From the NCBI GenBank assembly GCA_903885375.1, contig CAISIK010000118.1:1-64000 (forward strand): DNA of 64,000 bases, written 5' to 3'. The notes under the pieces were generated by a model. The model worked only from the letters and a program-made list of their open reading frames with translations, ran no database searches and was not told where the DNA came from. A program made the position numbers and the translations under genes. Positions within the stretch are counted from its first letter, which is position 1; every line of letters starts with the position of its first letter. This DNA is from an uncultured Pseudomonadota bacterium. Its GTDB lineage: Bacteria; Myxococcota_A; UBA796; SXON01. This document shows, piece by piece, positions 55,279 to 61,450 of the stretch.

Positions 55279-55306
55279 GAGTCGCGCTCCGTCATGCGCT
55301 CATTCT

Positions 55307-55616
55307 AACCACGCGACAGCGCGAGACGACGGGGTCACAGCGCTCCAGAGAAGACGACCCTACCCCCCGCCGGGCCCGCGCCCGGGCCCAGAGTCGCAAG
55401 GCCCTACGAGGCTCGGGTCGTGCTGCTCAACCGTGGGCGCCCCTCGAAGTAGGCGACGGTCCCGCCCGGGCGGCCCGACAACAGCGGTGCGAGCGTGTCG
55501 GCGACGAGGCTCGACTTGCGCGCGCCGCTCGGGCCGGTCACCGCGAGGAGGAGGCCGAGGGTCGGCTCGGCGTCGCCTCCGCAGGTTGCACCCCGACAGA
55601 CCACGGAGGACGAGCC
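55307..55616 (-). pseudogene. Internally deleted fragment of a second uvrA-like gene
   Basis: GLLLAVTGPSGARKSSLVADTLAPLLSGRPGGTVAYFEGR matches GLLLAVTGPSGAGKSSLVADTLAPLLSDRPGLPVAGFEGR of the UvrA-like gene at 58844-61450; then ATLGPGAGPAGGRVVFSGAL* matches its C-terminus VRLGPGAGAAGGRVVFSGAV*. Confidence 0.85.
55312..55394. repeat. Direct repeat, copy 1 (pairs with 58821-58902)
   Basis: Shared CGCGACAGCGCGAG and exact 27-mer CGCTCCAGAGAAGACGACCCTACCCCC (55341-55367 and 58850-58876). Confidence 0.85.
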
Positions 55617-55778: not shown

Positions 55779-56081
55779 GTGTTCCGGCGATCCGTCGGCA
55801 TCGCCTGCTGGTTGCTCGCCCAACATTTCCTGCAACGATGCTCGGATTTGTCGGCTCAGGTCATCCGGGCGTCGCAGTCGGTCGTCCTCAACCTCGCGGA
55901 GGGCGCCGCCCGCGGCGGGCCCGCCGGGCGCTACCACTTCGACCGGGGTCGCATACGAATCGCGCTCGGTTCCGCCGCGGAGGTCAGCGCGGTGCTGGAT
56001 CTGGTGGATCGTCCGGATGTTGCGGTTCGTCCCGTCGAACTGCAGCGCGTCGGGGCCATGCTTCGCGGGCTCACCCGGTAG
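55779..56081 (+). CDS. Four-helix-bundle (S23 / IVP-like) protein, N-terminus possibly missing
   Basis: RASQSVVLNLAEGAARGGPAGRYHFDRGRIRIALGSAAEVSAVLDL matches four-helix-bundle signature; upstream in-frame TGA. Confidence 0.6.
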   Translation: MFRRSVGIACWLLAQHFLQRCSDLSAQVIRASQSVVLNLAEGAARGGPAGRYHFDRGRIRIALGSAAEVSAVLDLVDRPDVAVRPVELQRVGAMLRGLTR

Positions 56082-56282
56082 GGCCGGGCGGGCCCCTACG
56101 GTACGCCCGGAGCCTTCCGCGCATATCGACCAACGGGCATCGTGACGGCCCGTGGATAGTGCCGGTCTGTTCGACGTTCCGGGAGAACCAACCAACGCAG
56201 CTCGTTGAGCAAGAGGACTTCGCGATCGGACCCCTTCGACGGCGGCGTACCCGCTGAGAGGGGTGGTCCGTTCGGAGAAGCC

Positions 56283-56309
56283 GGCGGGTCTGTACCCGCC
56301 ATCTTTTCC
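56283..56309 (+). terminator. Rho-independent-like terminator (plus strand)
   Basis: GGCGGGT-CTGT-ACCCGCC followed by ATCTTTTCC. Confidence 0.45.
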
Positions 56310-56337
56310 GGATCATCAGCCGCCATCTTTTCCGGAT
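56296..56337. repeat. Two 18-bp direct repeats, period 24 bp
   Basis: CCGCCATCTTTTCCGGAT at 56296-56313 and 56320-56337. Confidence 0.9.
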
Positions 56338-56981
56338 TCCACAGCGATCAGCGCGTCCCGCTCCGCCGGGGTCTCGACACCTTCGGCCACGAGCTCAATC
56401 CCGAGGTCCCGGCAGAGCGCAATCATGGAGCCGATGAGGCGCTGGCGAACCGGGTCGCCGTCGACTCCACGAACCAGGGACATGTCGATCTTGGCGACTT
56501 CCGGGTTGAGGGCGGCAAAGGCGGCGAGGCCGGCATAGCCCGCTCCGAGGTCGTCGATCGCCACACGGAAGCCGAGCTCACGCAGCCGATCGATCCTCGC
56601 CCGCACGTCAGGAACGCGATCCAGGGAGCTCCGCTCGGTGATCTCGAGGACCACGCGCGCAGCGAGGCGGGAAAGCGCTGCATCGGAGGAGTAGAGGTGC
56701 TCATCGAGCAGATCCATCGGGTAGAGATTCACGAATACGAGACCTTCCGCCGGGGCCTCGACGCGCGCGCGGATGGCGCGGCCCAGGTCTGGCAAACGGT
56801 CAAGCCGTTCGGCTGCGTCAAGCAGCGCGCCGGGATGGGGGAGCTTCGCCTCTCGCGAGCGCACCAGCGCCTCGAAGGCGTACACGGTGCGCGTCGACCA
56901 GCGTACGATCGGCTGGTAGGCAAGCCAGAGCTCGGCAAGCGCGCTGCCGAACGCGGCTTCGAGCCCGACGAGGTCGCCGAC
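56316..56981 (-). pseudogene. EAL (c-di-GMP phosphodiesterase) segment, in frame with upstream REC but separated by TAG; C-terminus truncated
   Basis: LWLAYQPIVRWSTRTVYAFEALVRSRE, VFVNLYP, LEITERSS, AIDDLGAGYAGL, AKIDMSLVRG, VAEGVETPAE then early stop. Confidence 0.75.
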
Positions 56982-57425
56982 CTACCCGTCCGTGCGCCCG
57001 CTCAGCTCGAGCAGTTCACGCTTCAGGCGCGCGAGCCGGGAGAGGTGAACCGCCCGAGTCACCTCGCGACGGAGCTCCACCGGCGCCAGCGGCTTCGCGA
57101 GGTAGGACAACGCGCCCAGCCTGACCGCCTCCATCGCGGACCGGAGCTCGGGCGCACCAGTCACGAGCAGCACGGGGACGTCGAGATCGAGCTGCCGTAC
57201 GGCATGCAGTAGCGACAACCCGTTCATCCCGGGCAAGCCGATGTCGCTGATGACGACATCCGGGCGGCGTGCACGAAAAGCCGCCAGCGCCGCCTCCCCG
57301 TCCTGGACCAGGTCGAGCGTGCGCTCCGGGGATTCCAGAACCGGCTTCATGATCTGCAGCGTCGTACGATCATCATCGACCAGGAGAATATGAGAAACGT
57401 TCTCGTACGCGGGCGCTATCTGCAT
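56982..57425 (-). CDS. Response-regulator receiver (REC) domain protein
   Basis: HILLVDDDRTTLQIMKPVLE, DVVISDIGLPGMNGLSLL, VLLVTGAPEL, YLAKPLAPVEL; ends GRTDG-TAG. Confidence 0.88.
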   Translation of the reverse strand: MQIAPAYENVSHILLVDDDRTTLQIMKPVLESPERTLDLVQDGEAALAAFRARRPDVVISDIGLPGMNGLSLLHAVRQLDLDVPVLLVTGAPELRSAMEAVRLGALSYLAKPLAPVELRREVTRAVHLSRLARLKRELLELSGRTDG

Positions 57426-57589
57426 CGAGGGGACTCCAGGAGGTCTTTACGGGGACTACTGAGGCTCGCATTTAGCGCGGTCGAGCCTGAGCCCGCAAGA
57501 AGCGTGAGTAATCGCATCGGTGGGCCTTTTGCCCCCGGTTCGGTGCCGACCGGGTAGCGGTTCAGCGCCAATTTCCCTGACCTCACGAG

Positions 57590-57755
57590 CTACGTCGGGG
57601 CGGGCACCAAGCGGGGCGTGCCGTGCGTCGTCCGGCGCCAGATCACCCCGGACCGAATGCCCTGCTCTGCGGTGTTGTTGGTGGGTTCGACCCCCTCGAC
57701 GTCGAGAAACAGAAACACGGCCTCCCATTGCCGGAGCAGGTCGCGACCGAGCGGC
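57590..57755 (-). mobile_element. IS66-type transposase C-terminal remnant
   Basis: LLRQWEAVFLFLDVEGVEPTNNTAEQGIRSGVIWRRTTHGT matches IS66-type '..VEPTNNxAERxIRxxVIWRK..' signature. Confidence 0.75.
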
Positions 57756-58449
57756 CCCATCGGCTTCATGGAGGACATGTCGAACTCGGAGTGACACGCG
57801 GTGCACAGGGCGACATGGTCGGCGAGATAGGCGCCGTCCTCCGGGCTCGGCGCCTCCGACGGCGGCACGTGGGCAGGGGCCCCGCCGTCCGCCGGTGCGA
57901 TCGTGATCAGCGCGAGCATCACCTTGCCCAGCGGCCCCCACTCGCCGGCCGGGACCGGGTTGCGAACCGGTGGGACGGAGCGAAGGTAGGACAGGATGGC
58001 GATGAGGTCCTCATCGCTCGGCTTGGCCGCCGATACCGCCATGAACAGCGAGTAGCGCCCGTCCGCGAGCACGCCCGTCCGGATGGCGCGGGCCAGCTCG
58101 GCGTCGGTGCTGCGCCCGATGCCGGTCTCGGGGTCGGGGGTCAGGTTCGCGGCCCAGGTCCTAGCGATGGGCCCCATGGCGAACTCAAAGCAACCCTGAA
58201 GCGGCGTAGTGAGAACCTGCTCGGGGTGCTCGCGGACCGCGCCAGAGTGGCACTGCGCGCAGTGGGCCGGCCCCTGCACGAGGTAGCGGCCGCGTTCGAT
58301 CACCGCGGGGTCCATGCTCGCGGCGAGTCCTTCCGGGTAGGGAGTGGTGGGAACGAGACCCGGCTGGACCAGGTGGCGAAAGCATATCCGACGAACGCAC
58401 CGAGCCCGAGGAGCACGAGGGCGAAGCCGATGGCCAGATACTTCAACAT
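57756..58449 (-). pseudogene. Di-heme cytochrome c, frameshifted near 58350 and fused to the transposase remnant
   Basis: Signal anchor MLKYLAIGFALVLLGLGAFVGYAFATWSSRVSF in one frame; PTTPYPEGLAASMDPAVIERGRYLVQGPAHCAQCH...LCTACHSEFD in the adjacent frame; two CxxCH motifs. Confidence 0.75.
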
Positions 58450-58820
58450 ACGACGAAGCACGAGCGTGTCTACTTGTGAAAGCATGAGAATGTGGAATAT
58501 CGTACGAATGTTTAGCCACGAAGCCCGCCCGACACGCTTGTGTCCGCGTCGGCGCTTCTCCTGCCCGCCATCCCACCCTCGAGTCCTGGCGCCGCCACCG
58601 GGGGCCAGGATGCGCCTCTCCCAGCTTCTCCGGCCTTGCTCGACGCACGGCGGCACCTCGACACGCCCCTGCCTCCCTCGGCCCCAGGCGGACCGGGGCG
58701 CGCGTGCCGCCCGTGGAGGCCCTACCCGCGCCCGGCCCGCGGATCGTCGACAGCCTCGAAATCCTCGCGTCCGCCGTTAATCCGGAAATCTTCGGTGAAG
58801 ACCCGAGGCTCGTCCAACCC

Positions 58821-58902
58821 CGCGACAGCGCGAGCCGACGGGATCACACCGCTCCAGAGAAGACGACCCTACCCCCGGCCGCGCCTGCGCCCGGGCCGAG
58901 AC
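58821..58902. repeat. Direct repeat, copy 2 (3' end of UvrA-like gene)
   Basis: See copy 1 at 55312-55394. Confidence 0.85.
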
Positions 58903-61450
58903 GCACCTCCCAGTCGCACGCCTGCACGAACACCGGGTCGTGCTCCACGGCGATCACGCTCCCTCCGAGGGTGACGAGCCGGCGCAACGCCTCGATCAGC
59001 ACGGCTACGTCTGCAGGGTGGAGACCCACGGAGGGCTCGTCGAGCAGGTAGACCGCCCCCTCCACCTCGCCCGGCCGCCCGAGCTCCCGCGCGAGCCGGA
59101 TGCGCTGCGCCTCGCCGCCGGAGAGCGAGTCGACCCCCTGGCCCAGCGGCAGGTAGCCCAGGCCCAGGGCGTCGAGGGTTTCGAGCACGCCCCCGATGGC
59201 GGGCACCGCCCCGAAGAGCGCGCGCGCCTCGTGCACCCGCGCCGCGAGCACATCGCCGATCGAGTGCCCCTTCCACATGACCGAGAGCGTGGCCTCGTCG
59301 AACCGACGCCCCTCGCACACCTCGCAGGGCACGAGCACATCGGGCAGCACGTGCATCGAAACCCGCCGGGCGCCCTCCCCCTGGCAGGCTTCGCAACGCC
59401 CGCCGGCAACCGCCGTGGAGAACCGCTCGGCCCCGAAGCCGCGCGCCTTCGCTTCGGGCGTGCGGGCGAAGAGCTGGCGGATCGGGTCGAAAATGCGCGT
59501 GGCGGTGGCCACCGTGGAACGGGCGGTGCGGGCGAGGGCGGCGCCGTTCACGGTGACGAGGCGGCCCACCCGCTGGCGCCCCTCGAACCCGGCCACCGGG
59601 AGGCCCGGACGATCGGACAGGAGCGGCGCGAGCGTGTCGGCCACGAGGCTCGACTTGCCCGCCCCGCTGGGCCCCGTGACCGCCAGGAGCAGCCCGAGGG
59701 GCAGCTCGGCATCGCCGCGCAGGTTGCGGCCCGACAGCCCCCGCAGGACCAGCGCGCCCCGGGGCGCGAGCCGCGCATGCTCGGCCACGCCCGCGCGGCC
59801 GGAGAGCCACCGGCCCGTGAGGGTGTCGGCGAGGCGCAGCGCGGCCGGCGTGCCGGCAAAGACGATGCGCCCGCCCTCCGCGCCCGCCCCCGGGCCGACC
59901 TCGATCACGTGGTCGGCGGCGTCGATCACCGCGGGGTCGTGCTCCACGACGAGCAGCGTGTTGCCGGCGGCCACGAGCTCGCGGAGGAGGCCGACGAGCC
60001 GCGTTGTGTCGCTCTCGTGGAGGCCGGCGGTGGGCTCGTCGAGGACGTAGAGCACGCCGCTGAGCTGGTTGCCCACCTGCGCGCCGAGGCGGAGCCGCTG
60101 CCACTCGCCGCCGGAGAGGGTGCCGGCCGCGCGGCCGAGCGGGATGTAGTCGAGGCCCACCCGCACGAGAAAACCGAGGCGACGGGCCAGCTCGTCGAGC
60201 AGGGGGCCGGTGATGGCGGTGCGCGCGCCCTCCTCGAGCGCCAGAAGCGCCTCCTGCACCGTGAGGTCGAGCCGCTCGGGCAGGGAACGCCCGCCCCACG
60301 TGACGGCGCGGGCCTCCGGTGAGAGCCGCGCGCCGCTGCAGGCGGGGCAGGCGCGCTCCCGTGACCAGCGCTCCTCGGGGCGCTTGCGCGCCACCGCGAG
60401 GATGCCGTCGGTGCGCTCATCGCCGTTGAGGAGGCGGTCGCGCGCCTCCCACGGCAGGCTCGACCACGGCACCTCCGTAGGGATGCCGGCCTTCTCGGCC
60501 CACCGGAGCATCGTGGTGCGCTGGGCATCGGTCCACGGGAGCGCCGCACCTTCGGCGAGGGAGAGCACCGGATCGACCACGGCGGCGGCATCCACCTCGG
60601 TCACGGTGCCCACGCCGCGGCAGCCGGAGCACGCGCCCACCGGGGAGTTGAGCGAGAAGAGGCGCGGGCTCAGGGGCGGGAGCTCCCGGTCGCAGTTGCC
60701 GCAGCGCGGGCGTGTGGCGTACTCGCGGAGCTCGCCGCCGCAGTCGGCGAGGAGCGCGCCCCGACCGAGCTTCAGCGCCGTGGCCACGGCCTCCTGTACC
60801 CGCTCCCGGCGGTCCGGCGCCACCTTGAGACGGTCCACCACCACGTCCACCTCGAAGGGGCCCGCGCCGGCGGGGGGCGCTTCGTCGAAGAGCACCGGCT
60901 GGCCGTCCACCCGCCCCCGCAGGAACCCCTGGCGGGCGTGGGCTTCGAACAACGGGCGCAGGGGGCCCGGCCGGCTCTTCGCCACCCGCGCCATCACCAC
61001 GAGCGCGGTGCCCTCGGGCAGCGCGGACAGCTCGCGAACGATGACATCCACCGGCGTGCTCCGCACGATCGCGCCGCAGGTGGGGCAGGACTGGGTGCCG
61101 GCGCGGGCGTAGAGCACCCGGAGGAGGTCGTAGAGCTCGGCGGACGTGGCCACGGTGGCGCGCGCGCTCGGGCCGGACACGGTGCGTTGCGCCACGCCGA
61201 TGCTCGGGAGCAGGCCCGTCATCGTTTCGTACTGGGGGCGAGGGGCCTGGCCGACCTGGGCGCGGACCCAGCTCGACATCGACTCCACGAAGCGCCGCTG
61301 GGCCTCGGCGTGGAGCGTGTCGAAGGCCAGCGTGGTCTTGCCGGAGCCGCTCACGCCGCACACCACGGTGAGCGCGCGGTGGGGCACCTCCACCGTCACG
61401 GACTGCAGGTTGTGCTCCGCCGCGCCCTCCACGCGCAGGGTGCCGCTCAT
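58844..61450 (-). CDS. UvrA-like excinuclease ABC ATPase
   Basis: VVCGVSGSGKTTLAFDTLHAEAQRRFVESMSSWVRAQ; two LSGGE signatures (AAGTLSGGEWQRLRLG, VDSLSGGEAQRIRLA); Zn-finger Cys motifs; second Walker A GPSGAGKSS. Confidence 0.92.
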   Translation of the reverse strand: MSGTLRVEGAAEHNLQSVTVEVPHRALTVVCGVSGSGKTTLAFDTLHAEAQRRFVESMSSWVRAQVGQAPRPQYETMTGLLPSIGVAQRTVSGPSARATVATSAELYDLLRVLYARAGTQSCPTCGAIVRSTPVDVIVRELSALPEGTALVVMARVAKSRPGPLRPLFEAHARQGFLRGRVDGQPVLFDEAPPAGAGPFEVDVVVDRLKVAPDRRERVQEAVATALKLGRGALLADCGGELREYATRPRCGNCDRELPPLSPRLFSLNSPVGACSGCRGVGTVTEVDAAAVVDPVLSLAEGAALPWTDAQRTTMLRWAEKAGIPTEVPWSSLPWEARDRLLNGDERTDGILAVARKRPEERWSRERACPACSGARLSPEARAVTWGGRSLPERLDLTVQEALLALEEGARTAITGPLLDELARRLGFLVRVGLDYIPLGRAAGTLSGGEWQRLRLGAQVGNQLSGVLYVLDEPTAGLHESDTTRLVGLLRELVAAGNTLLVVEHDPAVIDAADHVIEVGPGAGAEGGRIVFAGTPAALRLADTLTGRWLSGRAGVAEHARLAPRGALVLRGLSGRNLRGDAELPLGLLLAVTGPSGAGKSSLVADTLAPLLSDRPGLPVAGFEGRQRVGRLVTVNGAALARTARSTVATATRIFDPIRQLFARTPEAKARGFGAERFSTAVAGGRCEACQGEGARRVSMHVLPDVLVPCEVCEGRRFDEATLSVMWKGHSIGDVLAARVHEARALFGAVPAIGGVLETLDALGLGYLPLGQGVDSLSGGEAQRIRLARELGRPGEVEGAVYLLDEPSVGLHPADVAVLIEALRRLVTLGGSVIAVEHDPVFVQACDWEVRLGPGAGAAGGRVVFSGAV

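Follow-up and report, generated by a model that had tools for sequence, protein, structure and literature searches.

A REC-EAL response regulator gene with an in-frame amber codon and an IS21-family end is probably a recently inactivated pseudogene

Within the 64,000-nucleotide stretch of DNA that we analyzed (the window), a response regulator receiver (REC) frame with a GGAG ribosome-binding-like motif immediately 5' of its ATG encodes a 147-aa protein that ends in ...LSGRTDG at a TAG codon (Table 1). Past the TAG, the REC frame runs on as VGDLVGLEAAFGSALAELWLAYQPIVRWSTRTVYAFEALVR through a linker and into an EAL domain, the Pfam match of which covers profile positions 12–223 of 236. The order, REC and then EAL in a single frame, is that of REC-EAL regulators (PF00072 and PF00563), and what interrupts this frame is the TAG at 56984–56982. 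An earlier note on this DNA had described such a TAG-split REC-EAL frame; its coordinates, strand and frame were all correct, and Pfam supports both halves. GC content by codon position is 0.76/0.42/0.82 before the TAG versus 0.79/0.46/0.81 after it, and because this composition is the same on either side, we reasoned that both halves were once coding, in one frame.

Table 1. Features of the REC-EAL locus, in window coordinates
Feature	Position	Strand	Evidence
istA-side end (67 bp) of an IS21-family element (TGTGGA..., two TCCGGAAAAGATGGCGG copies); cuts the EAL gene	56277..56343	-	exact repeat, alignment to complete element
Linker and EAL remnant in the frame of REC, without the last barrel unit (LLQGYLFxxP)	56344..56981	-	PF00563, E=8.8e-41
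In-frame TAG in the REC-EAL linker	56982..56984	-	relatives have varied sense codons, Gln among the commonest
REC (response regulator receiver) frame, ATG to TAG, 147 codons	56982..57425	-	PF00072, E=1.3e-25
IS66 transposase scrap at the end of a cytochrome c-like ORF (in-frame fusion)	57590..57780 (approximate)	-	PF03050, ORF residues 292-341, E=1.9e-5

Judged by its domains, the gene product is predicted to be a phosphorylation-controlled c-di-GMP phosphodiesterase, a REC-EAL response regulator. It has the REC-linker-EAL order in common with RocR of Pseudomonas aeruginosa (PDB 3sy8) and other REC-EAL c-di-GMP phosphodiesterases, and a phmmer match to RocR spans both domains (query 33–360) with modest similarity (E=6.4e-13). 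Unlike RocR, the window frame has a stop in its linker and lacks the last EAL barrel unit.

To place the stop in context, we compared the gene with homologues drawn from 58 related genomes, 63 genomes of the order and a species-level genome collection. The best homologues were about 51–54% identical over their full length (53% for the best within the order). REC and EAL lie in one open frame in 97 of the 110 aligned homologues; the remaining ones differ at the N-terminus or are cut off by the contig end. Those sharing both the architecture and the linker at about 51–54% identity come mostly from Myxococcota-type metagenome genomes (L009, L041, L039 and L044 among them) and are intact, with no stop and with a full C-terminus such as ...GCDLLQGYLFARPGxPFP, whereas the window gene is broken. 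We observed no internal stop in the other matches listed from the 58- and 63-genome searches, where the window's copy alone carries one, and no stop at the TAG site in any aligned relative that spans the linker, the closest being about 53–54% identical. The TAG column itself is variable in the relatives, with G (19) and Q (15) as the commonest residues. Since the window's *VGD corresponds to RQLGD, KQLGD or EQPGD in several relatives, the TAG most simply lies one step from a CAG glutamine codon, and the stop may well have originated as a CAG-to-TAG change. The earlier note had offered a nonsense mutation or programmed readthrough as alternatives and had proposed an ortholog check. The sense codon of the relatives at the linker site, within one continuous REC-EAL frame, supports the nonsense mutation.

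The first ATG, GTG, TTG or CTG after the TAG is the GTG at 56885, which comes after 32 codons and past the YQPIV strand, just as had been noted before. This GTG could serve a reading with REC and EAL as separate genes, as in a split-gene lineage, and with EAL begun there or coupled at the TAG. However, starting at 56885 would lose the YQPIV strand, no start codon overlaps the TAG, the relatives are single-frame and the 3' end of EAL is gone, and we give this reading next to no chance. Because no start codon is present at the TAG, we also rejected reinitiation or coupling at this site.

The amber codon was taken in the earlier note as the sole break in the gene, and a second lesion had been overlooked. 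EAL homology stops at ...ERDALIA at window position 56344, and from 56343 onward the sequence reads TGTGGAATCCGGAAAAGATGGCGGCTGATGATCCGGAAAAGATGGCGG.... In 109 of 110 relatives, a QG[YFHWL] motif follows past the point corresponding to the window's junction; we did not find it in any of the three minus-strand frames within 1 kb beyond the junction. What has been lost is the last barrel unit of EAL, GCDLLQGYLFARP in the relatives (GCDLLQGYLFxxP), so that the C-terminal QGYxxxxP unit of a complete EAL barrel is cut away at 56344/56343. The far end of the span 56316–57425, which had been assigned as a whole to REC-EAL, is therefore not native: from about 56343 to 56316 (ESGKDGG and TGA) it is transposon-end sequence.

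The 67 bp from 56343 are repeated exactly in contigs C191 and C163 of the same genome, and in C118, C191 and C163 unrelated DNA lies directly before the TGTGG of each copy. We also found the 67-bp stretch to align with the terminus of a complete istA-istB element from a congener genome (G005:C175, L180), which has IstB (E=4e-60) and a 471-aa transposase ORF with an integrase core just under the Pfam cut-off (E=5.7e-6). Paired repeats, L1/L2, occur at IS21 ends (PMC10122671); two internal repeats, the TG start and the istA-side match are features that the window's 67 bp have in common with IS21-family ends. The element continues toward the istA start in C191 and C163. By comparison with a full IS21-family element (istA/istB), only this 67-bp end, with neither istA nor istB, is left in the window. 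Two further loci of the same genome, L122 (G000:C130, which carries an IstB gene, E=3.2e-57) and L121 (G000:C224), have IS21-type ends of related but different sequence, probably either the opposite terminus of this element or part of a sister element.

We considered whether the junction could be a misassembly at the 67-bp repeat. In both C191 and C163, the contig breaks off after exactly 141 bp of the element, a length that points to an assembly k-mer of 141. Because such a k-mer would be longer than the 67-bp shared stretch, a false join at the repeat is unlikely.

Next, we asked how the genome decodes UAG. RF1 is present, above the curated cut-off, and UAG terminates prfA, a prfB-like gene and several other genes; RF1 together with UAG ending prfA itself rules out a reassignment of the genetic code. 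A genome search with RF00005, the matches of which were scanned with ARAGORN, detected 42 tRNAs, none with a CUA anticodon, so the search for a suppressor tRNA that had been proposed came back empty. The genome is about 90% complete, and a missed suppressor tRNA is possible but unsupported.

These observations bear on programmed or leaky amber readthrough, by which the locus would make both REC-only and REC-EAL products. Conserved readthrough-type in-frame stops have been proposed for bacterial genes (PMC7918605), and in those genes, as in the window gene, one in-frame stop interrupts what is otherwise a coding frame. The long intact frame and coding composition after the TAG, together with the lack of another start before YQPIV, would fit such a mechanism. 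However, unlike the candidates of that study, the window stop is not shared by any relative and the gene is truncated at its 3' end; long deletions are taken there as a mark of real decay (PMC7918605). The decoding machinery offers no help either, with RF1 at hand, UAG in ordinary use as a stop and no CUA tRNA detected. Above all, the last EAL barrel unit is gone whatever happens at the TAG: because the IS21 end truncates EAL, a complete domain is out of reach via readthrough, and a readthrough product would consist of a truncated EAL and a few transposon-derived residues. Conservation of the stop (among relatives of no more than about 53–54% identity), a CUA tRNA or loss of RF1, and a complete extended domain were thus all lacking, and we regard readthrough, the second of the earlier alternatives, as highly improbable.

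Overall, we favor, with a probability of roughly 90%, a recently inactivated REC-EAL response regulator pseudogene with two separate lesions. A nonsense substitution in the linker would be one disabling lesion; an IS21-family element would have inserted into the EAL codons, and most of that element would later have been lost along with the 3' end of the gene. Expression, if any, would yield only the 147-aa REC protein without an output domain. Upstream of the junction, the consensus residue is retained in 52 of the 53 most strongly conserved columns of the family, with one departure. Neither the REC nor the EAL codons contain a frameshift, and outside the two lesions they have decayed little. 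From this conservation we infer that inactivation was probably recent, just as we infer the order of events; consequently, the missing decay does not count in favor of readthrough. With codons so little decayed, the gene may only very recently have lost an active role, or its REC part may still have one.

The TAG and the IS junction were both seen in the assembly alone, that of a draft genome in 224 contigs. A sequencing or assembly error at the TAG, with a sense codon in the linker and the gene broken by the IS21 end only, would need just one base (TAG for CAG) in a frame that is otherwise clean. We consider this unlikely, as the sequence bears no sign of an error and the second, independent lesion shows that constraint on the gene had been lost. 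A base-call error would, moreover, leave the verdict of a pseudogene unchanged because the IS21 lesion is independent of it.

The REC frame has kept its conserved sites and is intact, with a plausible start and ribosome-binding site, as would be expected had the truncated protein been kept as a neofunctionalized stand-alone receiver of the CheY/Spo0F kind. Such intactness is equally expected soon after inactivation, though; we found no relative with the same split, and scraps of transposons and of uvrA border the locus. We therefore rate a stand-alone receiver as quite improbable. About as improbable is the case in which either a functional REC-only receiver is kept or partial readthrough gives a truncated EAL protein, probably without activity, for the binding of partners or c-di-GMP.

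The locus is an ordinary decayed bacterial gene, and its significance overall is small. It adds one more case of a genome that has lost a c-di-GMP phosphodiesterase and still encodes another REC-EAL protein as well as other EAL proteins. Before readthrough is proposed for a lone in-frame stop, the far end of the gene should be weighed along with it; in the present case, the second lesion, made by a transposon, decides.

The surroundings are rearranged and scarred by mobile elements, and pseudogenes are therefore to be expected here. The IS66 scrap, located some 165 bp upstream of the REC start, replaces in frame the C-terminus of a cytochrome c-like ORF (57590–58648, minus strand); gene callers would report this chimera as a single protein. 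The upstream DNA at 57430–57740 occurs only once in the genome. Adjacent to the IS21 scrap, on its far side, is a small 23S_rRNA_IVP-family ORF (PF05635, E=6.4e-9; 55779–56081, plus strand). A broken uvrA-like copy also lies beyond the scrap, as two pieces at 55304–55615 on the minus strand, in direct orientation, across the REC-EAL locus, to a gene region at 58.8–59.8 kb that we take to be uvrA-like from a translated motif: 55422–55615 is 78% identical to 59561–59753, and 55304–55392 is 90% identical to 58813–58901. This arrangement suggests that the pieces arose by duplication and then deletion. Elsewhere in the same genome, we observed a REC-like match near a contig end (G000:C70:71-445; 29% identity) with an internal TGA, possibly another pseudogene.
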